DNA from: a virus
DNA: 58,431 bases
Direction: 5' to 3' (one strand)
Virus record (IMG/VR): IMGVR_UViG_3300021425_000043
Location: 1-58,431 of that record
Shown: one piece after another, positions 1,927-57,446 of the stretch
How the letters are laid out: each line of letters begins with the position of its first letter
How positions within the stretch are numbered: the stretch's first letter is position 1
The notes under the pieces: model-generated
Told to the model about the DNA's origin: nothing
The model's input: only the letters and a program-made list of their open reading frames with translations
The model's database searches: none
Position numbers and translations under genes: made by a program

Positions 1927-2706
1927 TTAGGCTGAAGCAAACATGTTTGTAGTATGTTCTTTAGTAGCCTGGTTTAGCTCAGTTGCAACTTTGACAGAAG
2001 AATCAGCGTGATTCTTGAAGTTCCACTCAGCTAGTCGCTGTTGACGTCTTTCGATCTCATTTCTGACACGAACATCTTTTAGAGACAGATCGTGCAATCC
2101 GAATGATTCACCGATAAGACCAACAACAGCTGACAACATACGAGCTTTGCGACCGAGACCGAACATCTTCTCCTCACGCTCAACCAACCATACTGGTAAG
2201 TCATCGTTTGGATTAGCTGATTCAGTTTCTTCTTTGTACTCGTACGCAATAGACGCGAACTCTGCCCAAGTCCTGGTTGTCAACTGTAAGAAGTTGATAC
2301 CTGTTGATTGTGGGTCAGTCTCAAGCAATGGCATAAGACCGTCTGCAATCTGTTGAACTTGTTGAAGATAATAATCTTCTTCTTTTTTACGAAGTCCACT
2401 GTCTTCAGTGTTAAATACCATAGGTGTATTCTTTTTAGACTTGAATACTTCCATAATACCTTCTACTCTTGATGGCTGAGCAATTGGCTTGCCTTCGCCG
2501 TCAATAGAATATTTTCTGTAGTAAAAGTCAGGCAGATGCACAGGGTCCTGTGTTGCCCTGAGTTCACTACCAACTGGGTCACCGTTGGTGTCTGGTTTCC
2601 ATGCAGACTCTGGTGTTTTTTGGTCAGGCAGGAGCTCGCCTGTCTCACCGTTAGCCATGTCTACTATTTCTGGACCTAAGTCCGATGGGTCAAAATGATT
2701 TGCCAT
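1927..2706 (-). CDS. hypothetical protein, 259 aa
   Basis: I chose the ATG at 2704-2706 (MANHFDPSDLG) because AAGGAGGTAATT lies just before it; an upstream in-frame ATG lacks this. The first ~60 residues are acidic and low in hydrophobics (GETGELLPDQKTPESAW), suggesting a disordered tail. The rest is helical with many charged pairs, including KARMLSAVVGLIGESFGL near residues 185-205 and an amphipathic RNEIERRQQRLAEW segment. There is no enzyme signature. The start overlaps the preceding 53-residue gene by 17 nt, implying translational coupling, and the unit ends at the terminator 6 nt downstream. It looks like an abundant early or structural accessory protein, but the role is unknown. Confidence 0.75.
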   Translation of the reverse strand: MANHFDPSDLGPEIVDMANGETGELLPDQKTPESAWKPDTNGDPVGSELRATQDPVHLPDFYYRKYSIDGEGKPIAQPSRVEGIMEVFKSKKNTPMVFNTEDSGLRKKEEDYYLQQVQQIADGLMPLLETDPQSTGINFLQLTTRTWAEFASIAYEYKEETESANPNDDLPVWLVEREEKMFGLGRKARMLSAVVGLIGESFGLHDLSLKDVRVRNEIERRQQRLAEWNFKNHADSSVKVATELNQATKEHTTNMFASA

Positions 2707-2851
2707 AATTACCTCCTTGGTTGGCGTTGATATCAACTCTTCTGATGAACTGCTTAAGCACCTCACCAGAAGACATAAATTCAGCTTGCGATTGTATTTC
2801 GCTTGCTTCGGCTTTTTCTAGCACCTCGTTGGGTACATGTACTTCTTCCAT
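2690..2851 (-). CDS. small hypothetical protein, 53 aa
   Basis: This short open frame begins MEEVHVPNEVLEKAEA behind AAGGAGGTTTGT, an excellent ribosome site. It encodes a hydrophilic, helix-forming protein (EASEIQSQAEFMSSGEVL). Its last codons overlap the start of the 259-residue gene by 17 nt and include that gene's ribosome site, so translation is probably coupled. It is the first gene after hairpin element D. No family is recognised. Confidence 0.7.
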   Translation of the reverse strand: MEEVHVPNEVLEKAEASEIQSQAEFMSSGEVLKQFIRRVDINANQGGNYGKSF

Positions 2852-2885
2852 ACAAACCTCCTTGTAATAATAATGAAATACATTC

Positions 2886-2925
2886 TACTTACTAACTCGC
2901 ATGAGACATTTGTAATGGATCATGC
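2886..2925 (-). promoter_or_regulatory. conserved hairpin + TAGTRTGTA element, copy D
   Basis: On the minus strand the inverted repeat at 2899-2925 folds as an outer stem GCATGA/TCATGC, a two-base mismatch, an inner stem CATT/AATG and triloop ACA. TAGTAAGTA follows after GAGT. It sits about 35 nt upstream of the 53-residue gene. Three relatives lie near 3.4, 4.2 and 4.9 kb, with different stem sequences but the same fold. Confidence 0.6.
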
Positions 2926-2961
2926 ACATATAAAGAGCCAGCACATTGTGCTGACCTTTTT

Positions 2962-2995
2962 AAAAAAGAAAAAAAGCTCGGCTTTTCATCCGAGC
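2962..2995 (-). terminator. intrinsic terminator
   Basis: On the minus strand a GCTCGG/CCGAGC stem with an 8-nt loop is followed by TTTTTTTCTTTTTT. It ends the transcript carrying the 71-residue gene that starts at 3326. Confidence 0.9.
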
Positions 2996-3110
2996 ATGTG
3001 CTTTTCGTAACAACCGCCCCGAGCTTTAATACGTCCTCGGGGTGACGTTGTGAGTGCTGGGTAGTCTCAAAGGACGTTCTGTATATTCCCCCAGATTCAC
3101 TCGTTGCCAA
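2996..3110 (-). other. structured untranslated segment, possible small RNA
   Basis: About 115 nt separate the stop of the 71-residue gene from its terminator, long for this compact genome. On the minus strand the segment holds a perfect CCCCGAG/CTCGGGG stem (3017-3023 with 3036-3042) just before the terminator stem. An open frame of 72 codons crosses it, but it has no ribosome site and would run through both hairpins, so I treat the segment as non-coding. It could be a stable 3' UTR or a processed small RNA. Confidence 0.4.
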
Positions 3111-3326
3111 CTAAGCTACTGCTGTTGCTGGCTGTTCAACTGACTGAGCTTTTGGCTCAATCAGTCTTTTGAAGACTTTCACTTGGTTGCCGTCACTGTC
3201 CAATGGAACAGCTACGTCAAAGTGTAGAGTCTCGCTACCATCTTTGTTGGTAGTTGCAATTCCGATTTCTCTACTTCTAGATTTACCGTCTTTGCCTGCT
3301 TTTAAAATGTATAATGAATACAACAT
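3111..3326 (-). CDS. small hypothetical protein, 71 aa
   Basis: The protein begins MLYSLYILKAGKDGKS behind CTAGGAGGTAAATT. The first 45 residues look like a small beta-rich domain (ILKAGKDG, REIGIATTNKDGS, LHFDVAVPLD), and the last 20 are a polar tail ending QPATAVA. There is no known motif. It is alone in its transcription unit, preceded by hairpin element A and followed by a structured segment and terminator. That layout suggests strong, independent expression. A small inhibitor or DNA-binding protein is possible but unsupported. Confidence 0.7.
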   Translation of the reverse strand: MLYSLYILKAGKDGKSRSREIGIATTNKDGSETLHFDVAVPLDSDGNQVKVFKRLIEPKAQSVEQPATAVA

Positions 3327-3388
3327 AATTTACCTCCTAGGTAAGTAATAATTAATGAGTCGATACACCCGTACCAACTTCATATAAA

Positions 3389-3424
3389 TACACACTAGCG
3401 CAGGACATCTATGATGGCCCGCGC
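3389..3424 (-). promoter_or_regulatory. conserved hairpin + TAGTRTGTA element, copy A
   Basis: On the minus strand a 12+12-nt inverted repeat (3398-3424) folds as outer stem GCGC...GCGC, one mismatch, inner stem CATC/GATG and triloop ATA. TAGTGTGTA follows directly. It lies about 60 nt upstream of the 71-residue gene. Confidence 0.6.
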
Positions 3425-3439
3425 CAGAGCGCTGTGCTA

Positions 3440-3967
3440 CTACTTGGAGATTGTTCTCCAAGTAATGTTGTAGCGTGTTTTGTTTTCCAGCGGTGTTGAT
3501 ACGCCGTGCGCGAGTTGGTTAAAGAACTCGCGATTGCCAATGATTAGCTCTCCGTTGTGGAGAGTAATCTTGTCGGCGGTGTAATCAAACACTGCTGGGG
3601 CTCCGAGGCTTAAAGATGCGATAGAGCCTTTGAGCTCTTTTTCGTCGTCTTTGTGTTTGTTGAGCTTTTGTCCTGGTTTATATTGATTAATAAGAACGTG
3701 GTTAAAGCTTTCGCCTGTTGTTTTGTTGAGCCAAGTAGTCAAAAGCTTAACTTTTGGTGTGTAGCCGGTGGCTATATGTGAACGGCCAGAGTAAATGTAG
3801 TTTAATCCGCGTTCGCCAAGCCAAGCTGTGCCTCTGCCGAATTCTTGTGTGAAGCTGAGCTGTTGCAGTTCAACAAGCAGAGGAGAAGCAAACTCAGGCT
3901 TGAGGGTCTGAGTTGCTTTTCGTAGTTGTGCTCCTGTGTTGTTAGTGTAAAGTGTTTCAAAATTCAT
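3440..3967 (-). CDS. alkB: AlkB-like Fe(II)/2-oxoglutarate dioxygenase
   Basis: This 175-residue protein has the full AlkB active-site set. The iron ligands are H105 and D107 (in NKHKDDE) and H154 (QLAHGVS). The 2-oxoglutarate/substrate motif RYNITWR supplies R165 and R171, matching the family RxNxTxR. AlkB enzymes remove alkyl damage from DNA or RNA bases by oxidative demethylation. Here it would act in the cytoplasm to protect phage DNA, or possibly host RNA. Length is close to compact phage and bacterial AlkBs. It is translated from AAGGAGAAACAA-ATG, 10 nt after the 57-residue coiled-coil gene, in a two-gene unit under hairpin element B. Confidence 0.93.
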   Translation of the reverse strand: MNFETLYTNNTGAQLRKATQTLKPEFASPLLVELQQLSFTQEFGRGTAWLGERGLNYIYSGRSHIATGYTPKVKLLTTWLNKTTGESFNHVLINQYKPGQKLNKHKDDEKELKGSIASLSLGAPAVFDYTADKITLHNGELIIGNREFFNQLAHGVSTPLENKTRYNITWRTISK

Positions 3968-3977
3968 TTGTTTCTCC

Positions 3978-4151
3978 TTAATTAAATTTAACTCCCAATT
4001 TCAACTTAACAGTTAACTGTTCAATAAGCTGTGATTGTTCGTTTACTTGTTTTTCTAATTCTTGAATTTGTTTAGATGCTTCGTCTAGAATTGCAATTGC
4101 TTTGTCTTCCAATTCTTTTCGTATTCTTTGTTGTTCTAATAGTTTGTTCAT
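3978..4151 (-). CDS. small coiled-coil protein, 57 aa
   Basis: The frame begins MNKLLEQQRIRKELEDK behind TAGGAGATTGTT and ends KLGVKFN. Almost the whole length is a predicted coiled coil with heptad-like Leu/Ile spacing (LLEQQRI, AIAILDEA, IQELEKQV, SQLIEQLTVKL). It probably forms a dimer or binds another helical protein. Its stop is 10 nt before the AlkB start, and hairpin element B lies just upstream. No family is recognised. Confidence 0.7.
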   Translation of the reverse strand: MNKLLEQQRIRKELEDKAIAILDEASKQIQELEKQVNEQSQLIEQLTVKLKLGVKFN

Positions 4152-4185
4152 AACAATCTCCTAATATGAATTAATAATACTCCTG

Positions 4186-4222
4186 TACATACTAGCGATA
4201 GGGCATCTATGATGGCCATCGC
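4186..4222 (-). promoter_or_regulatory. conserved hairpin + TAGTRTGTA element, copy B
   Basis: On the minus strand the inverted repeat (4195-4222) forms outer stem GCGAT/ATCGC plus GG/CC-type pairs, a small internal loop, inner stem CATC/GATG and triloop ATA. TAGTATGTA follows at once, then TTATTAATTCAT near the ribosome site of the 57-residue gene. Copy C shares the TTATTAATTCAT tail. Confidence 0.6.
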
Positions 4223-4230
4223 TGATATTT

Positions 4231-4514
4231 GGTTCCACTGGTTCCACTTGGTTCCACGAGTCATGGAACACAAAAAAGGTGATAACGATGCGTAGTTAGA
4301 GGTTTGGTTCCACTGGTTCCACTTGTTTTAGGTTAAGTTAATCTTTATTCATTAACCGTTGTCCGTGGTCCGTTACAAAACTAGGTTTTGTTTTACGCGG
4401 AACCACGGAACCACAAGTGTTGCAGATGCACACAAACACGCATTGCTATGCATATTTTGTATGGTTCCACGACTTGGTTCCACATCGGCATATTCCCGTG
4501 GAACACAAGGAACC
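4231..4514. repeat. cluster of GGTTCCAC repeats in both orientations
   Basis: The octamer GGTTCCAC occurs in the plus orientation at 4231, 4240, 4250, 4306, 4315, 4463 and 4476. Several pairs are spaced 9-10 nt, about one helical turn. Inverted GGAACC or GGAACA units occur near 4265, 4399, 4407, 4501 and 4509. The ~460-nt gap between the genes ending at 4151 and 4612 has no credible gene. Such an array looks like protein-binding iterons, for replication initiation, transcription control or packaging recognition. Confidence 0.7.
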
Positions 4515-4573
4515 AAAAATATATAACAATAATGCAAGTCGCAACTCGACATTGCACATTGATGATAGTAGTT

Positions 4574-4604
4574 AAATAAAAAAAGAAGGGGGCTGGACAC
4601 CCCC
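4574..4604 (-). terminator. intrinsic terminator
   Basis: On the minus strand GGGGG-TGTCCAG-CCCCC is followed by TTCTTTTTTT. It lies 8 nt after the stop of the 69-residue gene. Confidence 0.9.
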
Positions 4605-4611
4605 ATTGATG

Positions 4612-4821
4612 CTAGGACTTAGCTTTGAGTTCAAGCTCTAATTGCTTAGGCTTTCTATTAGATATATAACCCTGTGCCATGGCTGAGCCATATTTGACAG
4701 TGGTTTGTTTTACAGAATCGATACCAGACTTAAGAGAAGAAGTGGATAAAGAATCGACACCGTTGTGAACTGACGCGGTCATTGAACCAAGGCCAGTGAA
4801 TAGTTTTGTCATGTAGTTCAT
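4612..4821 (-). CDS. small hypothetical protein, 69 aa
   Basis: The protein begins MNYMTKLFTGLGSMTA behind AAGGAGTAAATT. It is Ser/Thr/Gly-rich (NGVDSLSTSSLKSGIDSV), with a weakly amphipathic N-terminus and a basic, Leu-containing tail (NRKPKQLELELKAKS). It has no clear membrane segment and no known family. It is the first minus-strand gene leftward of the strand switch, alone between hairpin element C and a strong terminator, which suggests a highly expressed early product. Confidence 0.65.
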   Translation of the reverse strand: MNYMTKLFTGLGSMTASVHNGVDSLSTSSLKSGIDSVKQTTVKYGSAMAQGYISNRKPKQLELELKAKS

Positions 4822-4859
4822 AATTTACTCCTTATATAAATGAATTAATAACACCCTAA

Positions 4860-4896
4860 TACATACTAGCTTTGTACATCTTTGATGGACACAGCT
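4860..4896 (-). promoter_or_regulatory. conserved hairpin + TAGTRTGTA element, copy C
   Basis: On the minus strand the repeat (4868-4896) pairs AGCT...AGCT, then TGT/ACA, with the same two mismatches, inner stem CATC/GATG and triloop AAA. TAGTATGTA and TTATTAATTCAT follow. It is about 40 nt upstream of the 69-residue gene. Confidence 0.6.
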
Positions 4897-5065
4897 TTTT
4901 TCAATACAAGGTTCCAAGTAGTAAAATGACAGTTAGTTTCTGAGATTTGGAAAGGGGGGGAAGGGGGTCTGTGGTGATAGTAGTAACCGATGTCAGAGCG
5001 ATACTCACACATTTTTTCAAAAAAATTTTTCCACAAAAAATTTACAAGTTATCCACAAATAAGAT
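4897..5065. other. AT-rich intergenic region with DnaA-box-like sites (candidate origin)
   Basis: This gap separates the leftward and rightward gene blocks. It contains a G-run (4951-4967), then A/T-rich DNA with TTTTCCACA (5027-5035) and a perfect DnaA box TTATCCACA (5049-5057), spaced 22 nt apart on the same face of the helix. Together with the GGTTCCAC cluster it resembles a replication origin. A promoter for the small terminase gene must also lie here, but I cannot place it. Confidence 0.45.
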
Positions 5066-5599
5066 ATGCTTACGAGTATGAGCTTAGTTGCAGATCAATC
5101 GACCACGGTCACCGAACAAGATAGATTGGAACTCCAATCACATTTTCCGTACGCGGGTGTAAAGTTATCCGAGCTTTCGGTTCAAGAAGAAAGATTAATT
5201 TTGTATTTTTTACGTGGCATGAGCAAAGCGGCAGCGGGCCGTGCGGCGGGGTACAGGAACCAAGATTCCGTGTACGAAGCTTTTAAGCGACCAAAGATTA
5301 TGCAGGCCATCGAGTATCTAAGAGAAGAGATGCGCGAAGAGGTTAGGTTCGATAAAAATACCGCGACCCAATTATATTTAGAAGCACATCGTAAATCAGC
5401 AACCGCGACTGAAGAAAAAAATGTCGTAGATTCGTTGTGCAAGCTCCACGGTCTATTCGCTCCAGAGCAAGCAACCCAAGTTAATATTAATTTAGATAAA
5501 ATCCAGCAACTAGAAAGACTGTCCGATTCTGAGTTGTTAAAGTTAGCTGGAGTAGATACAAAGTACCTAGAACCCCAAGGAGAAAATAATGGCGAATGA
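5066..5599 (+). CDS. terS: terminase small subunit
   Basis: This 177-residue protein (MLTSMSLVADQS) fits a small terminase. It has an N-terminal helix-turn-helix region with Ala/Gly turns (RGMSKAAAGRAAGYRNQDSVYEAFKRPKI, residues ~50-80). A long charged helix follows (EYLREEMREEVRFDK), then a C-terminal region for large-subunit contact. TerS binds the packaging site on phage DNA and loads TerL. It is the first gene of the rightward block; TerL is only 1.4 kb downstream. The ribosome site is weak (AAATAAGAT), so M5 at 5078 is an alternative start. The gene's end overlaps the next start by 11 nt. Confidence 0.8.
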   Translation: MLTSMSLVADQSTTVTEQDRLELQSHFPYAGVKLSELSVQEERLILYFLRGMSKAAAGRAAGYRNQDSVYEAFKRPKIMQAIEYLREEMREEVRFDKNTATQLYLEAHRKSATATEEKNVVDSLCKLHGLFAPEQATQVNINLDKIQQLERLSDSELLKLAGVDTKYLEPQGENNGE

Positions 5600-6290: not shown

Positions 6291-6610
6291 TGGCTAAGCC
6301 TACCGGTGGCCTAACCGCATGGTTTGGCAAAGGACCAAAAGGTGATTGGGTCGATATCGGTGCCCCTAAGAAAAAAGGTAAATACCAATCTTGCGGTAGG
6401 AAATCTGCAAAAGGTAAAAGTAAACGTAAATATCCAAAGTGCGTTCCAAGATCAAAAGCTCGGACTATGACTGCAGCGCAAAAACGAAGCGCAGTTACAA
6501 GAAAAAGAGCAGCGGGTAATCCAGGCGGGAAGCCTCGTAACGTAAAAACTATAGTTAGGAAGAGAAAACCAACTACAAGAAGGAGGACTCGTGCCAAGAA
6601 AAAGAAGTAA
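6290..6610 (+). CDS. small basic protein, DUF5872-like, 106 aa
   Basis: It begins MAKPTGGLTAWFGKGP and has the conserved core KGDWVDIGAPKKKGKYQ followed by CGR and YPKCVP, then a Lys/Arg-rich tail to RAKKKK. GGLxxWF...WVDI...CGR...YPKC is a pattern I associate with DUF5872, shared by phages and giant viruses; that name is from memory. Two Cys (C55-region CGR and YPKC) could bind metal. It overlaps the next start by 20 nt. Confidence 0.7.
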   Translation: MAKPTGGLTAWFGKGPKGDWVDIGAPKKKGKYQSCGRKSAKGKSKRKYPKCVPRSKARTMTAAQKRSAVTRKRAAGNPGGKPRNVKTIVRKRKPTTRRRTRAKKKK

Positions 6611-6875
6611 AATGCCTGCGAGGAATAAAAAGAACTTTAGGGCAACTAAAAAGGGTGCTGGGATGACTAAAGCTGGGGTAAAAGCCTACAGAAGAATGAA
6701 CCCAGGGTCTAAATTAAAGACCGCAGTAACAGGAAAAGTTAAAAAAGGCTCAAAAGCAGCAAAAAGACGTAAATCTTTCTGCGCTAGAAGTGCGGGGCAG
6801 ATGAAAAAGTTCCCAAAAGCAGCAAAAAATCCAAATTCAAGGCTAAGACAAGCCCGTAGAAGATGGAAATGTTAA
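6591..6875 (+). CDS. small basic protein, DUF6321-like, 94 aa
   Basis: It begins MPRKRSKMPARNKKNF. The block GVKAYRRMNPGSKLKTAVTG, then KRRKSFCARSAGQM and RQARRRWKC, matches a family I remember as DUF6321, often found beside DUF5872 proteins in marine phages. About 40% of residues are Lys or Arg, and it ends in Cys. The start overlaps the previous gene by 20 nt; M8 (6612) is an alternative. A histone-like or internal head role is possible. Confidence 0.7.
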   Translation: MPRKRSKMPARNKKNFRATKKGAGMTKAGVKAYRRMNPGSKLKTAVTGKVKKGSKAAKRRKSFCARSAGQMKKFPKAAKNPNSRLRQARRRWKC

Positions 6876-6890
6876 TAAAAGGAGAAGAAA

Positions 6891-15945: not shown

Positions 15946-16487
15946 TGGCTTTAGATCCAGGATATGACCCAACAGGACAACTAGAAGGGTTTTTACGTTC
16001 AGATTATGATCGTTTTATGAAAGAAGATGCGCCTTTTCAAGAACGTCTTCTTAGACAAGCTATGTCAGACACTTCAATTATTGATAGAGCTCGAACTATT
16101 GCGCCTAGAGAGATAGAAAAACAAAATCAAATTATGCGTCGTAATTTAGAAAGATACGGTGGAGGGAATTTAACACCGGCACAAAGACGGGAAATGAATA
16201 GAGCTCAACAAAGAGGCGGACAACTTGCAACGGCTAATACGATTAATCTAGCGAGAAGGAACCAAAGAGAAGTTAATCAAGCTTTAAGAGCGCAGCTGTT
16301 GTCTGTTTTTAATAGACAAAAATCACAAGCAACCGGTATGTTGGCACAATCTGGTCTTGCTCAAGTTTCTAGAGAGAATGCGTATAGAAATGCAAAAGCT
16401 TCTTATAGAGGAAATTTGTTTAGACTTGGCGGAGCTTTAATTAGTGGCGCTATCAAAGGGGCTACAGGGGGTGCAAGCGGTGGCTAA
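15945..16487 (+). CDS. internal virion protein, T7 gp14-like, 180 aa
   Basis: It begins MALDPGYDPTGQLEGFL. It is rich in Arg, Gln and Ala, with long helices (REIEKQNQIMRRNLERYGGG; RREMNRAQQRGGQLATANTI) and a C-terminal small-residue segment (FRLGGALISGAIKGATGGA) that could insert into membranes. Such composition and gene position match gp14-like or P22 gp7-like ejection proteins. It overlaps both neighbours. Confidence 0.6.
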   Translation: MALDPGYDPTGQLEGFLRSDYDRFMKEDAPFQERLLRQAMSDTSIIDRARTIAPREIEKQNQIMRRNLERYGGGNLTPAQRREMNRAQQRGGQLATANTINLARRNQREVNQALRAQLLSVFNRQKSQATGMLAQSGLAQVSRENAYRNAKASYRGNLFRLGGALISGAIKGATGGASGG

Positions 16488-18975
16488 TAAATATATTCCA
16501 CAAGAAGAATACAAACCAAAAGGGCTCTTATATCAATTACCTATAATTGGAGATGCTCTTAAGGATGCCCTTATTCCACAGAGTGTGCAACAGTCTCAAC
16601 TTGCAAAACTTAATGAACAAAAACTTGTAAACAACGCTATTGATTACGGCTTTAATGATAATTTTTTAATAGACGCTAGGGCAGGCGGATTGCTTGGTAA
16701 TAACTATCAACCTATAGAAACAGAAGGAAAATCTTTTATTTCTAATTTACTTTCTGTGGAGTCATCTGAAGGTGGTAAACAATTTACTTTAAAAAATAAA
16801 GATTTTATAGAAGCCTTGGTAGCAGACTTTCCTCTTCTTACTAAAACTCAAACAGTTCAAGGGACTACAGAAGACTTTATTCCTAGTAGTGTAGTTTACA
16901 ACCCAAATAAAAACAGCGTTTTTATAGTAGGGAAGAACTATAAAGGAGATATGGCCCCTAAAACTTTAATGCAGTCTGATGCAACAGATGATGAGATAGC
17001 AGAATATTCTTTATCAGACGCTAACGAGTTGTTTAAATTAGCTCTTAATTATAAGTATGTTAACTCTAATCAAAAACCTGGCTACATAAGTGCTTCTCTT
17101 CAAGATGCGCAACCTTCAAATACATCTCTTGATATAGCTGAGGCTATCTCTGAAGCAAAGAAAAACGGGTTGTTAGAAGATGCAGAAGTAGTTGGGCAGT
17201 TTAATGAAAGTATTGCTGCTTTAATCGCAGAACAACAAGACCCAGAAGCAGCTGCAAAATTAGATGACGAGATACCACCTATTGCTTTGACTGAAGTTAG
17301 GCCTGAAATTGTCGAGTTATTACCGGACCAAGCAGGGCCACCAGAACCGGGTTCTAAACAAGCTCAAGCTATGGCTATGGTAGAGGGCTCACAACTCAGT
17401 GAAGAAGACACGAACGCAATGATACAGGCTTGGAATAACATGAACACTGCTGAAAAGGTATCTTTGTTAAGCACTGGGCTACTTGTTATACCAGGGGTTG
17501 GCGCTCTTACTTATGCAGGAGTTAGAGGTATTGCCCTTACTGCAGGAGTTTTATCAAGAGCAAATATAGGAACAAGACTGCTTAATTTTGCTAAGAGCAC
17601 TGTTACTAGGCCTAAAACACAGACTCAGGCTGTATCTAAAAGCGGCAAAAGATTTGATGTTGATTCTCCGCAAGGCAAACAAATTGTCAAAGCTGGTGAA
17701 GCTGATTTGAAAAAAAGATCAACTAGCGAAAAATTAATGGATTTTGGAAGAGGAAAAGGCTCACAGAACCCTAGAACAGTGACTGAAGTTGTAAAAGATT
17801 CTTCCGGTAACGTAGTAAGAGAATTTTCGCCGACAAGAGCTACCGGTTTGGGCTTAGCCGGCACTAGTATTGGCGGGAATATCGCTGGTGGCATGATCGA
17901 GGGAGAGCTTGATGAGATAGAAACAGCTAACGAGCAACAAGCTGGGACTGAGGCTGTCGCTTTTGATGTTCCAGAGTTTAAGAGCGCGCAAGAGGCCACT
18001 ACTTATTTTAGTGATGAAAACAATTACAACAACTTTGTCAAGGCCGCAAGCAGCACAGGCGCTCAAAACGTAGCAGAACGTTTAGAGTCTGCTCTTGACA
18101 GTTTAGGAGTTACAGATGGGCAATCTTTTACTGCTAATATAGACAAAATAGTAGCTAGCATTAACCCAACTAATGATGTTAACACTAATAGGATAGCTGC
18201 AGCTTTGATTGCTGAAAGATCAGGAGCTTCTAGACCGGATCAAGCTAAACTTTTTTATAATACCCTCAATGCTTTTACTAGTTCAGATCGCTTAAGTTTT
18301 GATGCTTCTGCTAGACAAAGAGACTTACTAACAGAAACTAAAGATAGCTTTACAAGTTACTATCTCCCAGATACTGGTTTTGATACTAGTGGAGAGATAC
18401 AAGAGATACAAGAGTTGTTTGCAGGAGGTAGTTTTGATGAACTTACTGAAAATAACTCAATTAAATTAAACAGAGATGCTTTAGCTGGTAAGTATCAGGC
18501 TCTTTTTCCTGAGTATATTATGACAGATAATGGCCCTTTAAATATCAAAAGAGCACAGTTACAAACAGCCGGCCAAAGAGTTGGTTTAAACAGAACTGAA
18601 CTTGTGCAATTAACCAATAACCAAAGAGCAGTAGAAAACTTAGAAAGAATACAAACAAGTCAAGCTGTAAAAAGTTTGATAGACAAGTACAGCAGAACAG
18701 GGCTTTTTGAAGCTATAAGAAACTTTTTTGCAGGTAGAGTAGATTTTAAAGATCCTGAAGACGAAATATATCCTTACGTTTCAGCAGAAGTTAGAAAAAC
18801 AGAAACTGGCTATGACTTAGTAAGGTTAAGATTGAGACAACCGGGTTCTGGTGCTAAATCTAGTATAGTCATTGAAGACCAAGAGTTTACTAATGAGTTT
18901 GGTAATTTAGAAAGCCAGTTGCAACTTGGTTTTTATGCTAATTTAGGTAAACAAAATATCAAAGTAATAAATTAA
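16480..18975 (+). CDS. internal virion / ejection protein, 831 aa
   Basis: I place the start at GTG 16480 (MANKYIPQEEYKPKG), with AGGGGG about 8 nt upstream. A longer frame from GTG 16444 gives 843 residues. The N-terminal ~280 residues are mixed alpha/beta. Residues ~325-370 are hydrophobic and Gly-rich (LLSTGLLVIPGVGALTYAG; GIALTAGVL) and could cross or line a membrane channel. The remainder is helical and polar. I recognise no catalytic motif. It is probably part of the ejected DNA-delivery apparatus. Confidence 0.65.
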   Translation: MANKYIPQEEYKPKGLLYQLPIIGDALKDALIPQSVQQSQLAKLNEQKLVNNAIDYGFNDNFLIDARAGGLLGNNYQPIETEGKSFISNLLSVESSEGGKQFTLKNKDFIEALVADFPLLTKTQTVQGTTEDFIPSSVVYNPNKNSVFIVGKNYKGDMAPKTLMQSDATDDEIAEYSLSDANELFKLALNYKYVNSNQKPGYISASLQDAQPSNTSLDIAEAISEAKKNGLLEDAEVVGQFNESIAALIAEQQDPEAAAKLDDEIPPIALTEVRPEIVELLPDQAGPPEPGSKQAQAMAMVEGSQLSEEDTNAMIQAWNNMNTAEKVSLLSTGLLVIPGVGALTYAGVRGIALTAGVLSRANIGTRLLNFAKSTVTRPKTQTQAVSKSGKRFDVDSPQGKQIVKAGEADLKKRSTSEKLMDFGRGKGSQNPRTVTEVVKDSSGNVVREFSPTRATGLGLAGTSIGGNIAGGMIEGELDEIETANEQQAGTEAVAFDVPEFKSAQEATTYFSDENNYNNFVKAASSTGAQNVAERLESALDSLGVTDGQSFTANIDKIVASINPTNDVNTNRIAAALIAERSGASRPDQAKLFYNTLNAFTSSDRLSFDASARQRDLLTETKDSFTSYYLPDTGFDTSGEIQEIQELFAGGSFDELTENNSIKLNRDALAGKYQALFPEYIMTDNGPLNIKRAQLQTAGQRVGLNRTELVQLTNNQRAVENLERIQTSQAVKSLIDKYSRTGLFEAIRNFFAGRVDFKDPEDEIYPYVSAEVRKTETGYDLVRLRLRQPGSGAKSSIVIEDQEFTNEFGNLESQLQLGFYANLGKQNIKVIN

Positions 18976-18978
18976 TGT

Positions 18979-21900
18979 ATGGCTATACCAAAAGAGTTTA
19001 TAGGGAGTCAGTCTGAAAGAGACATAAGGGCTAACAACCTTAAAGACTTAGAGCCTTTAATAGGTACTCAATCTAAAAGAATTCTTGGGCCAGAAGATCG
19101 TGTAGAAGTTGATGATTTAACTTCTGGCATAGAACGTTTCCGTGCCTCTTTTAAAGCTGGACAAGCTAACCTTGTAAGTTCCCTTGCTAACTTTGATGCT
19201 TCTGTAGCGGCTTTGACCGGCAACGAAGAGAGGATGAATGAATCCTTAAAACGAGCAAAAGATGAACAAGAGGTAGGAGCTTATTATCTTTTAGACAGCC
19301 AACCTTTCGAAGAATTTATCAAAGCGCCTACTTTTAGTGGCTTCGTAGATAGTGCTATAGAAGCAACCGGTCAATTTGCCCCCACCGCAATCACAAGTGT
19401 TATTGCAGCCCTAGCGGGTGCAGGAGTAGGAGCGAGCTTGAGCTACTTAACAGGCTCTAGTAGTTTGTTTGCTGCAGCTGGTAGTACTGGTTTGACCACT
19501 ATACCTGCTAGTTTAGCTTCAAGAAAGTTTATTCAAACTGAAGTAGAAGATATCTTAAAAAAGAAAGTAACTTTAGATGTTCTTAAAAAACAAGGTAAAA
19601 AGACTGCAATAACTATGACACCTGAAGAGGATAAAGTTGTTAATCTTTTATACCCGTATTTAAGATCCCAACTCAGGAATAAGTACGCAACTAGAGGTGC
19701 CGTAGCGGGCGCTTTTGCACAAGAACAACCTATTGGTGCAGGTATAGCCTTTGGCGATTACGCTGAACAAGATATGACAGACCCCATAACCGCATTTAGA
19801 GCTCAACAACAAGGCGCTACATTTGGCCTGATTGGTGTTGGTAGTGAAGCTTTGATCTATAAAGCTATTGTTGGAAACTTAAAAAGCAAAGCAGCAAAAA
19901 ATCTAATTAACGAGAGAGCTATATTAGATGCTCCTTCAGCTGGTAAATCTACACTTGATATTGTTTCTAGAGGTTTAGGTGCTGGAGTACTCACAGGCGT
20001 TTCTGAAGGGGTAGCAGAAGGCTTGCAAGAAGAACTCTCCGTGCAACAAAAACTTAGAATAGATGACGAATACACGAAGACTCAAGCTAACTTAGATAGG
20101 CTCCAAGCTCTGTATATGGGAGCTATAGGTGGCATGGGAATTGGTACCGGCACTGGTACAAGTACTGCTGTGCTAGGAAAAATGAGAGAACTTGTTGAAA
20201 TAGGGTATGAAAAACGTATGTTTGATTTATACCAAAAAACAAAACAAGGCGAGAATAATCCTATTTTAGAAACACAAACAGATTTAAGTGCACAGTTTAG
20301 AGACCTACAAGACCCTAATATTAATAGAGATTTTGTTTGGGTAGATCAACAAAACTATGAAGAGTTTGGTCCTATTGCAAATAGGATAGAAAAAATATCA
20401 AACCTAGAAAGGACTATGATACCAGGGGTAGGTACTTTCTTTACTCTTGATGGCGACCTTAACCAAAGGTTTGTAAACACTATGAGCGCTGCGCCTTTGA
20501 ATAGAAAAAGACTGTTAGAGTTTTTAGATATTTATGGTAAGAACCCTCCTACTGAAGGTAAGGGCATGAGAGTAGTAGTGTCTGTACGTGGCCAAAACAA
20601 CGAAGTGTTAAAGAGGTATGATGTAGAAGCAGGCGAAGAGGAACAAACTGCTATAACAGCTGCTCAAAATTACATAGGGGGCCCAGATGGTACTAACAAT
20701 AGAAATATTGTTGTGCAAACTTTAGAGGCTTTTAATGAAGAACGTGCAGGTAAACTTCCTGTCCGAGAAGAAGAGTCCGCAATGGAAGAAGACTTAGATG
20801 ACTACGAAGCTAATCAAACTCCTTTTGAAACTTTTACAACTGAACAAGAAAGACTGTTTGCACAAGACACACAAACAGAACCCCAAATAGTACCAGATTT
20901 AAAAGCTAGAAATATTAGAGAACAACAAGGATCTCTTGAAAACCCTATCGGCAGGGAAACTGATGGTAGGCCTTTTGGGGTCGTAAAAAATCAAAAGTTT
21001 GTAGTTAAAAAGGGAGATGAGTTATACAACAAGATATTGAACGGTGCAGAAGACACTACACCTTTAGCCCCAGAGTTTGTTACAGAGTTTGATAGACTAG
21101 TTACAGCAGGAAAAATTAGTGAAGGTGTAGCTAATAGATATTTAAAACTTAATCAAGCTTTAGCCCGTAGTGATTTGTTAGGAAACCAAGCTTACGGTTT
21201 TGGAGAACAATCAGAGGGCATAGTTATTTATAAATATAATATGCCTGGAGTCTCAGCAGCTGTTGGCACACAAAATGTTACTCCTGATTTAGCACAAAAA
21301 GTTGCAGCTATTGTAGGAAGAGGTAGAACTAACAAACCCCCTAAAGATAGGGATCCACGTAGTCAAAGAAGGTTTACAAGGTTTGAATTAGAGAAAGATG
21401 GAGAGAAAACCCCTGTAGACCCTAATAGGTTTACCAATATAGGTAGGAATATATCTAAAGCTTTTGGTAATAATATCGAAGGAGATTTTCAATCTGCTAT
21501 AGGAGGCTTTGGTTTCTTGTTAGCAGAAATGTCCGCAAACGGTTACACCCTTTTATTTGAAGGCAAACCTTTTACTGATGAACAAGCTGGTATTGCTCAA
21601 ATTTATAATAAAGATGGTAGGTCTTTAACTCTTGAGCAAATGCAAAGGCAGATAGGCAGAGAAACAAGCCTACAAAGAAATCGTAATGTGCCTTTGACCG
21701 AGACTTCTACTTTAGAAGGAATAGAAAGAGATGACCTAGAAGCTGCACAAAATTTAGTAGAAGAAGCAGAAAAACAAGTAAAACTAGCAAAAGAAGAACT
21801 TGAACAAGTTAAAGAAGATGTTGAGGTTGAAAAAGCTGCACTTAAGCAAGGCTTAACAGAAGAAGAAATAAGTAGTGGCATGTTTGTAAGCCAAACTGGT

Positions 21901-24873
21901 AAGAAAGTAAAACCTTTTAGACCAAAAGGTCAGCAAGAAGCAGTCAACCTTAGTTCTAGAGAAGCAGCTATAGATAGAAAAGTTGAAAGAGCGGAAAGAA
22001 AATTAACAGCAGCTACAAAAGGAGAGGATGTTGCAAATAATGTTTTCTTCCAAGCAGAGAAACAAGGAGAGCAAGAAATCCAAGAAGATCCAACTGATCA
22101 ATACGCTTTCGATAGCAATCCTTTGTTTAGAGAATGGGCTAAAAAACCTGCGCGGTCTGCAGAACAACGAGAACTAGATGCAACGCAAGCAAAGGCGGGA
22201 AAAGAATATGTGCAATATAGTTCTACTATAGAGAAGCATCTTGGTGTAGAAGTTTTAGATGCTTTAAAAAACATTGCTAAAAATACATTAGGGCTAAATA
22301 GAGAGATGTTATTCTTCAGTGCAGAAGATACTATTGTTCTAGAAGATAAAAATTTAGAAAAAAGAGCAAGAGCTGCACAGGCTAAATTTGGGCCTGAGTC
22401 TAATCAACGTGGTATAAATATACGAGGCCGTGGCAACACTGACGTTATTATTATACAGACTAGAGACGGTTTTAACGCAGAAGACCAAGGAGCTCGACTT
22501 TTTGCTGTAGCCCACGAAATAGGACATTCTTTTATTTATCAAGAATTAGATAGAAGTTTAGGTGTAAAAACCCTTAGAAATGCTTTACAAAAAGCTTTTG
22601 ATGAAGAACTAAAGACTAATACAACTGATCAATATTCTTTGCCGGACGGTAAAGGTTTCCAAGAATGGGTATCAGACCAAGTAGCCGTATTTTTAATTGA
22701 TGAGACTAAGAAAGCTAAAAACCAAACAGAGTCATTCTTTAAAAATATTGCAAATAAAGTAAAAGCTTTCTTCTCTAAGTATGAAGCTGTAGCAAAAAGA
22801 AGGTTCACACAAAACCCTGCTTTTAATGATTATATCCAAGAAGTTATGTCTTCTACTAAAAACAATAAATTTAAGTATGAACAAAAAGCTAGAGTAGAAG
22901 AAAAAATAGAAGAAGTTAAACAGGTATTAGACAAAGGGGCCGCACAAACTCTTAAACGTATAACCAACAAAATTGTAGAAGATGGAGAAATACCTAATTC
23001 TAGAGTAGATGCAGCAACACGTACTCTTAGAACTATCTTTCAAGATGCCGATGGGCTACTTAGGAGTTTTGGAGAACCAGGCAAAGCCTTAGCAAGGCTC
23101 TTTAAGCAAAGAGTGGGTACTAAAGAAAAGACTGCTTACCTAACTAAAGTATTTAGTCTTGCTCGTGCAAAGATGAATGAGATACAAACTATTTTGAACG
23201 TAGAGTCCCCAGGTGATATGAATGAAGCAGTTGAACAAGTATTACAAGAGTTAGAAAATCCAGATACTCCTTTTGAACAGTTATCACCGCAAGCTCAACA
23301 GATGCGCACCTTTTTAATTAAACACTACAACGATTTAAATTTAGGTGAGTTAGGAGTGGGTTTCTTAGAAAACTATTTCCCTAGGTTGTATAAGATAGAA
23401 GAACTATTGAATGACCCTGGTTTAAGAGAAACTTTAATTGAAACCTTAGTTCAATATAATCCTGGCTTGTCAAAAAGTGACGCAACAGATGCTGTTGTAG
23501 ATATGTTACGTGACCCAAGTGAAGATGCTAACTTTAATAGGGCTGCAGAAGATGAGTATGCAGTGGGTATGTTAGCGCAGAGAGCAGAGTTATTTAGAAA
23601 TATACCTACAGATGCTTTAAGAAATGCTGAGCTTTTAGAAGACGCTTCTTACGCTTTACAGAGATACATACAGAACTCTACTAAAAGAAGAGGTTTTGCT
23701 GATTTTGGCGGTACACAAGCCATAGAAGAACAGCTAAGCCTTATAAAAGACCCTAAAGAAAGAGAACTAGCTAAAGATGCAGTTAAAGCAATACTAGGTA
23801 GGGTTGACCCTATAGAGAGTAAAACTTTTAGAAACATTAACAATGCAGGTTTATTTTTTAATGTCACTACATTATTACCTTTATCTGTCTTTGCTTCTTT
23901 CCCAGATCTAGCAGGCCCTATCTTGCGTTACAGAGGCATACCTAACTTTTTAGAGACTATGCGTACTGTTACTGCAGCTATGTCGGAAGCAGAAGTAGAT
24001 CAATTTGCAAAAGATATAGGAGCTGTTGGTATTAATGCTATGAATGAGCAATATGTGGGTGCGGGAGAACTACAGTACACAAGTAAAAAGACTAAAAAAT
24101 GGACTAATAATTTCTTTAGGTTTATACAATTAGAACAGTTTACTAATTTTACTAGACGATTTGCTGCAGGCATGGCCCGTGTATTTTTAATAGATAATGC
24201 GAATAAAGCTTTAGCAGGAGATGAGACTGCACAACGTTACCTAGGAGAGCTTGATGTAACAGCTGACGAAGTTATAGCATGGGGTGGGGGAGATATCACT
24301 GCTCCGTCCCATCAAAGAGTTAGACTAGCGGCTGCTAGATTTGTAGATGAGGCTATTGTTAGACCTAATGCAGCCGAGAGGCCTGTTTGGGCTTCTGATC
24401 CTAGGTTTGCCTTAGTTTGGCAACTTAAGTCTTTCTTTTATTCTTACGGCAAAAACATCGTAATGGGCACAGGTAGAGAGATGCAATCTAGAATGGCAGA
24501 AGTTGGTATGAAAGGGGCTGCAATACCTTTATTTATGGGTGCAGTTACTCTGCTTCCTTTAACTATGTTAGGCCTTGATTTAAGAGAAAGATTTAAAATT
24601 GGTTTAGCTTGGGCGTTGCCGGGTGTTAGCCCTGAAGATAAGAATTATAGAAGGTCTTTAGATATGGACATGGGGGAATATAGCGTTGAGATTATAGATA
24701 GATCTGGAATATTAGGCCCATATACAATGGCGTTGCCTTTATTCATAGAGAGAAAACGTTATGGAGACCCTCTATGGGTAGGGCCATTAGGGCCTACTAT
24801 AGGTACAGGTTATGATTTGATATCGGGTGATATTAAACCAAAGAATTTAATTCCATTTTATTCACCATTATAG
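18979..24873 (+). CDS. giant internal virion protein with HExxH metalloprotease motif, 1964 aa
   Basis: The largest gene in the window. The N-terminal part contains Gly/Ala-rich hydrophobic segments (residues ~130-180: GQFAPTAITSVIAALAGAGV). A coiled coil lies around residues 915-965 (EAEKQVKLAKEELEQVKED). A zinc-protease motif VAHEIGHSF has H1179, E1180 and H1183, with a plausible third ligand E1229 in QEWVSDQ. The C-terminal ~350 residues are helical and partly hydrophobic (GAAIPLFMGAVTLLPLTMLG). Length and position fit the T7 gp16-like giant ejection protein, which carries an enzyme to breach or modify the envelope. Here the embedded activity looks proteolytic rather than peptidoglycan-cleaving. 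An AGTTTATAG-like start context gives no strong ribosome site. Confidence 0.8.
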   Translation: MAIPKEFIGSQSERDIRANNLKDLEPLIGTQSKRILGPEDRVEVDDLTSGIERFRASFKAGQANLVSSLANFDASVAALTGNEERMNESLKRAKDEQEVGAYYLLDSQPFEEFIKAPTFSGFVDSAIEATGQFAPTAITSVIAALAGAGVGASLSYLTGSSSLFAAAGSTGLTTIPASLASRKFIQTEVEDILKKKVTLDVLKKQGKKTAITMTPEEDKVVNLLYPYLRSQLRNKYATRGAVAGAFAQEQPIGAGIAFGDYAEQDMTDPITAFRAQQQGATFGLIGVGSEALIYKAIVGNLKSKAAKNLINERAILDAPSAGKSTLDIVSRGLGAGVLTGVSEGVAEGLQEELSVQQKLRIDDEYTKTQANLDRLQALYMGAIGGMGIGTGTGTSTAVLGKMRELVEIGYEKRMFDLYQKTKQGENNPILETQTDLSAQFRDLQDPNINRDFVWVDQQNYEEFGPIANRIEKISNLERTMIPGVGTFFTLDGDLNQRFVNTMSAAPLNRKRLLEFLDIYGKNPPTEGKGMRVVVSVRGQNNEVLKRYDVEAGEEEQTAITAAQNYIGGPDGTNNRNIVVQTLEAFNEERAGKLPVREEESAMEEDLDDYEANQTPFETFTTEQERLFAQDTQTEPQIVPDLKARNIREQQGSLENPIGRETDGRPFGVVKNQKFVVKKGDELYNKILNGAEDTTPLAPEFVTEFDRLVTAGKISEGVANRYLKLNQALARSDLLGNQAYGFGEQSEGIVIYKYNMPGVSAAVGTQNVTPDLAQKVAAIVGRGRTNKPPKDRDPRSQRRFTRFELEKDGEKTPVDPNRFTNIGRNISKAFGNNIEGDFQSAIGGFGFLLAEMSANGYTLLFEGKPFTDEQAGIAQIYNKDGRSLTLEQMQRQIGRETSLQRNRNVPLTETSTLEGIERDDLEAAQNLVEEAEKQVKLAKEELEQVKEDVEVEKAALKQGLTEEEISSGMFVSQTGKKVKPFRPKGQQEAVNLSSREAAIDRKVERAERKLTAATKGEDVANNVFFQAEKQGEQEIQEDPTDQYAFDSNPLFREWAKKPARSAEQRELDATQAKAGKEYVQYSSTIEKHLGVEVLDALKNIAKNTLGLNREMLFFSAEDTIVLEDKNLEKRARAAQAKFGPESNQRGINIRGRGNTDVIIIQTRDGFNAEDQGARLFAVAHEIGHSFIYQELDRSLGVKTLRNALQKAFDEELKTNTTDQYSLPDGKGFQEWVSDQVAVFLIDETKKAKNQTESFFKNIANKVKAFFSKYEAVAKRRFTQNPAFNDYIQEVMSSTKNNKFKYEQKARVEEKIEEVKQVLDKGAAQTLKRITNKIVEDGEIPNSRVDAATRTLRTIFQDADGLLRSFGEPGKALARLFKQRVGTKEKTAYLTKVFSLARAKMNEIQTILNVESPGDMNEAVEQVLQELENPDTPFEQLSPQAQQMRTFLIKHYNDLNLGELGVGFLENYFPRLYKIEELLNDPGLRETLIETLVQYNPGLSKSDATDAVVDMLRDPSEDANFNRAAEDEYAVGMLAQRAELFRNIPTDALRNAELLEDASYALQRYIQNSTKRRGFADFGGTQAIEEQLSLIKDPKERELAKDAVKAILGRVDPIESKTFRNINNAGLFFNVTTLLPLSVFASFPDLAGPILRYRGIPNFLETMRTVTAAMSEAEVDQFAKDIGAVGINAMNEQYVGAGELQYTSKKTKKWTNNFFRFIQLEQFTNFTRRFAAGMARVFLIDNANKALAGDETAQRYLGELDVTADEVIAWGGGDITAPSHQRVRLAAARFVDEAIVRPNAAERPVWASDPRFALVWQLKSFFYSYGKNIVMGTGREMQSRMAEVGMKGAAIPLFMGAVTLLPLTMLGLDLRERFKIGLAWALPGVSPEDKNYRRSLDMDMGEYSVEIIDRSGILGPYTMALPLFIERKRYGDPLWVGPLGPTIGTGYDLISGDIKPKNLIPFYSPL

Positions 24874-42608: not shown

Positions 42609-43632
42609 TATTGGAGATATTTCTGAACTAAAAGGGACTGCTAGCGTCTTAAGAGACCAACCTTACGGCGCTGAATTAGATTTTGACATTCAACAAATGG
42701 ATGACGTTCGTACAACTAACGGACGTGTAGGCATAACATTCCTGGACAATTCTATTGTACGACTGACGGAACATTCTAAACTTGTCATAACTGAATACAT
42801 TTACGACCCTGACCCTTCAAAAGGTAAAATGGCCATGACGTTTGCTAGCGGTACGGCTAGGTTTATAAGCAGTAAACTAGGCAAGATTGATAAAAAAAAC
42901 ATAAAACTTTCTACACCTACAGCTGACATTGCAATTCGTGGGACTGATTTTACGTGTACCGTAGACGAACTTGGACGTTCGCTTATTATTTTACTACCTG
43001 ATGCTAACGGTTTATCTAGTGGCGAAATACTTGTTACAACCGCTGCAGGCACAGTTACTTTAAACAGACCTTATGAAGCTACGACTGTTAATGTATTTGA
43101 AAACGCACCTAGTAAACCTGTTATATTAGATTTAACTTTAGACATAATAGACAACATGTTGATTGTTAGTCCTCCGGACGAATCAAAGTTATCCACAGAA
43201 TCATCCACAACGTCCGGAAATACTGGGGCAATTTTAGATATAGACTATTTAGAGTTTGAGGATTTAGAGTTTGATTATCTAGCAGAAGACTCGCTTGAAT
43301 TTAGTGAGCTTGATATAAATTATTTAGATGTTAATTTTTTTGAAGATTTATTAGAAGTTATAGAAGAATTAGATACTTTGGGAGACCAGGCATTGACTAC
43401 AGGTTCAGTGCTGCAGGGCACAACCTTTGGGCAAGATTTAGTTACGCAAATTACAACTTTTAAACAAGATGAAAGCATTATTTTAGAAAGAGCAGTAACG
43501 CAAGCTACTAAGTTGACCCTAAACATATCGCAGGGCTATACTATAATATTACTGCAGGATGGTAAAACACAACAAGTGTTAATAAATGGTGGAGGTGACT
43601 CTACTATAAGGATTACACAGGGGTCAGGATGA
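42523..43632 (+). CDS. secreted FecR-domain protein
   Basis: 369 residues with a signal peptide (MTGLKLYLTVMVVLFASFKTTKAQA). A FecR domain spans ~30-180 with its markers: RTTNGRVGITFLDNSIVRL, TEHSKLVITEY, GTARFISSK and STPTADIAIRGTDF. The second half is acidic (DIDYLEFEDLEFDYLAEDSL) and ends with a small beta motif (LNISQGYTIILLQDG). FecR domains sense or transmit signals in the periplasm. In bacteria, single FecR-domain proteins are often encoded next to CHASE2 adenylate cyclases, exactly as here. It starts 86 nt inside the curlin-like gene; M11 (42553) is an alternative start. Confidence 0.85.
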   Translation: MTGLKLYLTVMVVLFASFKTTKAQAQAVNIGDISELKGTASVLRDQPYGAELDFDIQQMDDVRTTNGRVGITFLDNSIVRLTEHSKLVITEYIYDPDPSKGKMAMTFASGTARFISSKLGKIDKKNIKLSTPTADIAIRGTDFTCTVDELGRSLIILLPDANGLSSGEILVTTAAGTVTLNRPYEATTVNVFENAPSKPVILDLTLDIIDNMLIVSPPDESKLSTESSTTSGNTGAILDIDYLEFEDLEFDYLAEDSLEFSELDINYLDVNFFEDLLEVIEELDTLGDQALTTGSVLQGTTFGQDLVTQITTFKQDESIILERAVTQATKLTLNISQGYTIILLQDGKTQQVLINGGGDSTIRITQGSG

Positions 43633-57267: not shown

Positions 57268-57446
57268 TAAGTTAACCTCCATAATAAATAAATAATACAC
57301 CCGAGGCCGATTCCGACACCGAGCAGAAGCAACGAGTATTGAATACTAGTTGCAAGACCGAATAATAAAAACAACACAGCTGTGCCGGTCAACACAGAAA
57401 TACCAAAGTCTTTGGCATATTGTTTACATTTTGATAACTTCTCCAT
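57267..57446 (-). CDS. two-pass membrane protein, 59 aa
   Basis: MEKLSKCKQYAKDFGISVLT starts at ATG 57446 behind GGAGGCTCCCT; the longer frame upstream is the metallopeptidase gene in another phase. Two membrane segments (ISVLTGTAVLFLLFGLATSI; LLLLGVGIGLGCIIYLLWRL) form a hairpin. It overlaps the metallopeptidase end by 23 nt and the next start by one base. With the next two genes it forms a small membrane-protein cluster. Confidence 0.6.
   Translation of the reverse strand: MEKLSKCKQYAKDFGISVLTGTAVLFLLFGLATSIQYSLLLLGVGIGLGCIIYLLWRLT

Follow-up and report, generated by a model that had tools for sequence, protein, structure and literature searches.

Four small leftward genes of the virus record IMGVR_UViG_3300021425_000043 are each preceded by a short hairpin. 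Do these hairpins act in the RNA, or are they read as folded DNA? The window analysed here is the whole record, a stretch of 58,431 nucleotides (nt; 58.4 kb), and the hairpins are read on its minus strand. A sequence-only reading described the same fold at all four places and proposed that structure is under selection, in an RNA leader or a cruciform operator. We confirm that the four hairpins are real, and we find strong support for selection on structure. Our preferred reading, to which we give a probability of about 0.4, is that they are DNA-hairpin promoters read by the host polymerase or an unrecognised one. The genes are called early by virtue of their position and small size, which suggest this status.

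Four hairpins and a covarying family

The four hairpins and the motif downstream of each are as follows (aa, amino acids).

2899–2925, minus: hairpin 1, 5' of the 53-aa gene; 6-bp outer stem, TxC and CxT mismatches, CATT/AATG inner stem, loop ACA
2886–2894, minus: TAGTAAGTA, a diverged form of the downstream motif, 3' of hairpin 1
3398–3424, minus: hairpin 2, 5' of the 71-aa gene; outer stem GCGC, G.T, GG/CC, CxT mismatch, CATC/GATG, loop ATA
3389–3397, minus: TAGTGTGTA, downstream motif, 3' of hairpin 2
4194–4223, minus: hairpin 3, 5' of the 57-aa gene; outer stem AGCGAT, bulged T, GG/CC, CxC mismatch, CATC/GATG, loop ATA
4186–4194, minus: TAGTATGTA, downstream motif, 3' of hairpin 3
4868–4896, minus: hairpin 4, 5' of the 69-aa gene; outer stem AGCT, GxA mismatch, TGT/ACA, CxT mismatch, CATC/GATG, loop AAA
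4860–4868, minus: TAGTATGTA, downstream motif, 3' of hairpin 4

The mismatch beneath the inner stem is CxT in hairpins 1, 2 and 4 and CxC in hairpin 3. Every hairpin carries one more irregularity, namely a second mismatch (TxC, hairpin 1), a G.T pair (hairpin 2), a bulged T (hairpin 3) or a GxA mismatch (hairpin 4). The 9-mer TAGTRTGTA, which had been described after each hairpin, follows three of them exactly (at 3389, 4186 and 4860); after hairpin 1 it is diverged and lies four bases further on. Further copies are found in the window at 51561 and 53853. The start codons at 2851, 3326, 4151 and 4821 lie 42–71 nt past the hairpins, and each has a Shine-Dalgarno sequence (SD).

On the minus strand from 2851 to 5066, a triloop scan that treats G.T and A.C alike finds exactly these four hairpins at a score of at least 8. 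In 200 dinucleotide shuffles the mean is 0.26 and the maximum 2, and none of the 200 has four. The same scan finds 9 further hairpins on the remaining minus strand of the window, so that single triloop hairpins are not rare there and the cluster of four is. A triloop hairpin of the same size also lies at about 57330–57354 (minus), in leftward genes distant from the four, with score 9, a TxC mismatch and loop TCA; its conservation among relatives resembles that of coding sequence.

Hairpins of this kind recur in uncultured marine phages. At a score of at least 7 they are present in 59 of 142 distinct early leaders, versus 97 of 2840 shuffles (3.4%). Removal of 7 GGGT-type loops and, by eye, 7 others (L075, L094, L101-4807, L082, L099-4466, L033-848 and a near copy in L103) leaves the family in 45 of the 142. 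A typical element has about 11 pairs closed by a triloop. In 32 of the 36 interrupted elements, pairing is first broken after 4–6 pairs, and the outer stem follows; this first interruption is a pyrimidine-pyrimidine mismatch in 26 of the 45 and a 5' bulge in 6, and the 9 elements without interruption are fully paired over 9–12 bp. Bulges number 7 on the 5' arm versus 1 on the 3' arm (p 0.07). Orthologous leaders often have the hairpin at the same place with different letters, and in the 71-aa leaders it is, by eye, mostly kept in place. The loop sits 45–82 nt before the start codon, in a search limited to the leaders of called starts. With simple gene calling, some copies overlap the end of the preceding open reading frame (ORF).

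Covariation was measured on 25-mers. After removal of non-triloop elements and the addition by hand of two copies (window hairpin 2, which equals the L024 copy, and one L059 copy), the set contains 40 elements, 37 of them distinct. Watson-Crick pairs fill 336 of 407 cells, versus 165 +- 8 in column shuffles, and standard pairs make up 85.5%, a percentage inflated by the selection of elements for folding. The covariation score is 0.844, versus 0.207 for shuffles and no more than 0.189 for slid controls; with the window type left out (28 sequences) it is 0.758, versus at most 0.156 in slid controls. All 11 pairs are changed on both sides, which is equalled by 117 of 500 shuffles and so is no evidence by itself. 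Selection for folding alone does not explain the variety of compensating pairs.

Covariance models recover the family in part. The full model, R1, has 13 matches at E<=1 in 370 kb of related contigs, having been built from such copies. On the window, whose hairpins the model includes, R1 finds hairpin 1 at E=0.013 and, with filters off, hairpin 2 at E=0.021 and hairpin 4 at E=0.039; hairpin 3 reaches only E=2. The model R2 contains 28 copies, none of the window type, and fails on the window hairpins. Therefore, what ties the groups together is their orthologous position, architecture and mismatch type, the fixed G described below, and L024, in which a window-type hairpin occurs together with other types.

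The elements have 0 matches among the curated covariance models of Rfam. With default filters, which also miss three of the four window hairpins, R1 has no match in Aeromonas phage phiA008, in four Pelagibacter phage stretches or in one seawater phage stretch. No such hairpin is seen on reading nine intergenic regions of phiA008 and the ends of its record. Among the open papers listed by searches of PubMed Central, taken by title and the start of the abstract, none describes such elements in this phage clade. Pseudomonas phage KPP25 (L119) has two perfect 9-bp hairpins with GGA triloops, at 24021–24041 and 24322–24342, 5' of its first two rightward genes; they are on the coding strand, opposite to the TCC orientation.

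Strand asymmetry, a fixed G and genome-specific loops

The 45 elements contain 44 1x1 mismatches on the coding strand: 32 pyrimidine-pyrimidine, 3 purine-purine, 3 G.T and 6 A.C. The excess of pyrimidine-pyrimidine mismatches is significant versus a noisy set of 152 terminator-like hairpins (p 1.3e-4). The 71-aa leader provides a second comparison.

3358–3379, minus: element B, second leader hairpin of the 71-aa gene; loop GGGT

Element B varies by G.T and not by A.C; in relatives its loop is AGGT or GGGC, and 13 variants contain 19 G.T and 0 A.C. It probably is a genuine element of the RNA, where it might act in translation or bind a protein. The family differs from it (3 G.T and 6 A.C versus 19 and 0; Fisher p 2e-4, over cells that are not phylogenetically independent).

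DNA folding makes the template strand the more stable one in 25 of 37 elements and the coding strand in 3, with ties in the remainder (Wilcoxon p 2e-5). In RNA folding, the coding strand comes out ahead in only 10 of 37. In addition, 34 of 42 elements have a G at 11 nt after the loop. The stretch downstream of the hairpin is partly conserved, and the flank upstream carries hardly any conservation or information. The mismatch types, the balance of G.T and A.C, the DNA folding of the template strand and the fixed G with its bare upstream flank speak somewhat for DNA and fit a coding-strand RNA poorly.

Loops are more similar within a genome than between genomes (similarity 0.79 versus 0.53, p 0.0005; 34 within-genome pairs in this and the next comparison). 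The same holds for inner stem and loop together (0.59 versus 0.46, p 0.0015). Outer stems are as dissimilar within a genome as between genomes (0.40 versus 0.39, p 0.32). Such a pattern would fit recognition through the loop and inner stem by a factor that differs from one phage to the next, the outer stem having merely to pair. The outer-stem result makes a classical sequence-specific operator unlikely. Of the two proposals made at the outset, the RNA leader is disfavoured, and the cruciform is favoured in the form of a DNA element of that type.

Promoter, RNA leader or another kind of site

What we observe directly is the fold with its covariation, where it lies and how it is oriented, the asymmetry between the strands, the fixed G and the genome-specific loops, and we read these features as follows. 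The element would be a transcription start signal that acts as folded DNA. In supercoiled phage DNA, the site would extrude a triloop hairpin, and a polymerase complex would recognise the loop and inner stem on the template strand; for the outer stem, pairing would be the sole requirement. Transcription would start at a constant distance, probably close to the conserved G that lies 11 bases past the loop. Every early gene or small operon would in this way have a start to itself, those downstream of terminators among them. The reader may be the RNA polymerase of the host, or else a factor of the phage or its virion that has gone unrecognised.

Terminator-like sites are present beside the hairpins of the window.

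4588–4604, minus: terminator-like site 3' of the 69-aa gene; T-rich
2976–2995, minus: terminator-like site 3' of the 71-aa gene, 5' of hairpin 1; T-rich
2936–2956, minus: second terminator-like hairpin, following the 71-aa gene, immediately 5' of hairpin 1

A short gene unit had been described after each hairpin, three with clear terminators; we find T-rich terminators after two of the four, the 69-aa and 71-aa units. A boxA-like GCTCTTTA ahead of hairpin 1 was dropped as part of a terminator-like hairpin. Among the 25 distinct leaders of the 53-aa gene, 11 lack a family hairpin. Upstream terminators accompany 7 of 11 of these leaders that have a family hairpin versus 1 of 11 that lack one (p 0.024), in a count that is partly hand-assigned: for two self-called terminators (the nearer one of L096, and that of L098) and for the non-family hairpins of L075 and L094, the assignment was changed by hand. 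When three GTCGC-type leaders are included, the counts are 8 of 14 versus 1 of 11 (p 0.033). This coupling is expected if the hairpin supplies a new start. An exception is the 55-aa gene of L062 and L083, where a terminator-like hairpin stands directly before the SD and start, without a family hairpin.

DNA-hairpin early promoters are known from N4-type phages, which inject a giant polymerase. On F-type plasmids, Frpo is a single-stranded DNA promoter, a long plasmid hairpin that works in transferred single strands. By description, Frpo is a DNA hairpin read by the host RNA polymerase for early-entering genes, a feature that the family would share with it if the promoter reading holds.

Published descriptions place three N4 early promoters in the leftmost 10% of the genome, with inverted repeats around position -11, a sheared pair between -10G and -12A in the P2 loop and non-conserved stem bases for which pairing suffices (PMC4496689); they describe contact of the N4 virion RNA polymerase (vRNAP) with the central purine of the loop, and predicted hairpins with a 3-nt loop before early genes of LUZ7 and LIT1 (PMC3715699). 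We scanned the first 6 kb of N4 for stems of at least 5 pairs with TNC or CTT triloops, a loop class set in advance. Three hairpins are found, at 95 (TTC), 564 (TCC) and 4553 (TCC), before gp1, gp2 and gp15; from their number and place they are presumably P1–P3. They have a G 10 and 11 nt after the loop, and a coding C at the second base after the loop.

The family resembles these early promoters of Schitoviridae in its short triloop hairpins before early genes, in several copies in the early region, in stem bases that vary and stay paired, and in the G about 11 nt after the loop. The coding-strand loop is TNC (template GNA) in 25 of 37 distinct elements, with TCC in 18 and TTC in 3 as in the presumed N4 promoters. 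The centre of the template loop is a purine in 31 of 37, and in three of the four window hairpins (not hairpin 4). The N4 start lies about 11 nt from the loop centre, and the conserved G of the family is one base beyond the matching distance. A filters-off search of KPP25 and the first 6 kb of N4 with R1 gives E 0.48 for the best of 25 matches, and E 2.8 for the N4 hairpin at 4553.

A further comparison is with the start-associated sequences (SAS) and extended SAS (ESAS) of cluster K mycobacteriophages (PMC3203893). Like the family, these are repeated elements, some containing imperfect inverted repeats, that stand before many non-structural genes and vary between phage groups. They comprise a conserved 13-bp sequence, as a rule 3–7 bp ahead of the start codon, and half-sites of 17 bp that follow a consensus. 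The window hairpins end 42–71 nt before the start and their outer stems have no common sequence, which sets them apart by description.

No N4- or T7-type RNA polymerase was recognised in the searched records of the clade, and the reader is left between the host RNA polymerase and an unrecognised factor because no such enzyme was found. PF14700, which finds T7 and misses N4, gives nothing in three records. PF00940 is silent in 12 records, in a search in which the positive controls are silent as well. A 1964-aa virion-type protein (18979–24873, plus) was rejected as an N4-type polymerase, with no N4 match and no alignment to vRNAP. The AlphaFold model of its residues 990–1964 is poor (mean predicted local distance difference test score 54.9); therefore, the missing PDB match at E<=0.001 says little. 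The protein contains an HExxH metallopeptidase-like motif, invariant in a 7-sequence alignment of the relatives covering that part. The 843-aa protein (16444–18975) was likewise set aside, with no RNA polymerase motif by pattern and no output from tblastn against the collected loci.

Several results weigh against the promoter reading. PF00940 has no match in the window and two ~61-kb relatives, in a search that finds the T7 enzyme and N4 RNAPII and sees N4 vRNAP only at E 0.007, below the cut-off; an N4 vRNAP profile matches N4 and 0 of 6 records, which may be incomplete. None of the four window loops is TNC, and loops in the window's own clade are mostly ANA or GCA. At the second position after the loop, 38 of 42 elements have G or A, giving template C or T, so that the -8G of the N4 template stem is not kept. 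N4 stems have 5–7 bp and those of LUZ7 and LIT1 4–5 nt, whereas the family has about 11 bp, usually with an internal mismatch. Some orthologous leaders outside the 45 fold poorly: those of the GTCGC type, with a very short inner stem (e.g. L015, L034, L081), and the first-gene leaders of L021, L098, L099 and L100. On the window, R2 matches only hairpin 1, at E 3.8 and ranked under other window matches; on three pieces of two relatives it gives just two weak matches, the best at E 0.26. The G.T/A.C contrast comprises 9 cells and is not significant versus the noisy 152-hairpin set (p 0.14). Finally, the coding-strand RNA of the four hairpins folds well too (z -3.3 to -4.0), with 0, 2, 0 and 0 of 200 shuffles folding equally well.

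This RNA folding agrees with a different explanation, which we consider credible without preferring it: each early mRNA would carry the hairpin at or near its 5' end, or a longer early transcript would be processed there, and the hairpin would make the message more stable or be the target of a protein or nuclease specific to the phage. The distance between loop and start codon would fit a leader, the copies that overlap a preceding ORF end would fit intercistronic processing, the genome-specific loops suit an RNA-binding partner, and element B, an RNA-like hairpin, comes next in the 71-aa leader. However, A.C is no rarer than G.T, the mismatch is mostly pyrimidine-pyrimidine on the coding strand, DNA folding favours the template strand, and Rfam has no match. 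The hardly conserved upstream flank and the position of some hairpins shortly 3' of terminators also speak against an RNA leader.

Loops and inner stems alike within a genome would be expected, too, of a site where a phage-encoded regulator binds DNA by reading the hairpin or the adjacent TAGTNNGTA motif, and the downstream stretch is partly conserved. Such a site is unlikely: the outer stems share pairing and not sequence, and no candidate regulator was identified. Slightly less probable still are recombination sites, folded single-strand sites resembling attC or repetitive extragenic palindromes, at which small early genes are exchanged as cassettes. Early gene content does vary among relatives while the hairpins recur between genes, and the likeness of loops within a genome would fit. 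However, the hairpins stand shortly ahead of start codons and have a G at a fixed place beyond the loop, the 71-aa leaders, by eye, mostly keep theirs in place, and no recombinase was found among the window proteins searched, a subset of the ORFs.

Surrounding genes and the meaning of the hairpins

The leftward cluster of small genes diverges from rightward genes that run from 5066 on.

4612–4821, minus: 69-aa gene, first in the leftward cluster; without family match
3978–4151, minus: 57-aa gene; family matches weak, coiled-coil-like only
3440–3967, minus: AlkB-like 2-oxoglutarate-Fe(II) oxygenase, 175 aa; PF13532 E=1.6e-15, AlkB models matched below their cut-offs
3111–3326, minus: 71-aa gene, conserved in the clade; relatives at 26 loci (IMG/VR), no confident family
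2690–2851, minus: 53-aa gene, conserved in the clade; relatives at 38 loci (IMG/VR), no family

The locus sets of the 71-aa and 53-aa genes overlap. Two early proteins have no relative in the phages collection, a 258-aa protein has none in the genome contigs, and no cultured relative was found. The window terminase shares 51% identity with its counterpart in Aeromonas phage phiA008 and about 41% with the one in KPP25. A sigma-70 scan of 2400–5300 gives 8 promoter-like sites, versus 5.7 +- 2.3 in shuffles; the sole minus-strand site, 2820–2791, is not at any hairpin. Searches of the window for tRNAs and with Rfam have no match.

By eye, an array of GTGGAACCA repeats and palindromes occupies about 4230–4510, immediately before hairpin 3, and may be an origin or a protein-binding array. 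An exact pattern search of the genome contigs found no such array. GTGGAACCAGTGGAACC is present in 10 of the 12 records searched, the window included. In the divergent region, beside AT-rich runs, TTATCCACA at 5049–5057 is what we take to be a DnaA-box-like motif. Genes of small basic proteins at about 6350–6880 (plus) match stretches of 17 phage records at 68–78% DNA identity, and 15 of these records are from Pelagibacter phages; these genes, and not the GGAACC array, which was rejected as the source, account for the pelagiphage matches. At 43629–45380 (plus), a CHASE2 domain is fused to an adenylate/guanylate cyclase domain, in a phage.

For the clade as a whole, it is possible, if rather doubtful, that marine phages without a recognisable N4- or T7-type polymerase start their early genes from extruded DNA hairpins with phage-specific loops, outside the N4 system and with a host or novel-type polymerase. 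If so, sites of the same kind, several per genome and without an N4-type enzyme, would represent a second route to read folded DNA, or would point to an unrecognised polymerase. If the sites are RNA instead, they would be a new family of early-leader hairpins with phage-specific loops. On either reading, several early genes each carry their own covarying tag, which makes the question directly testable.

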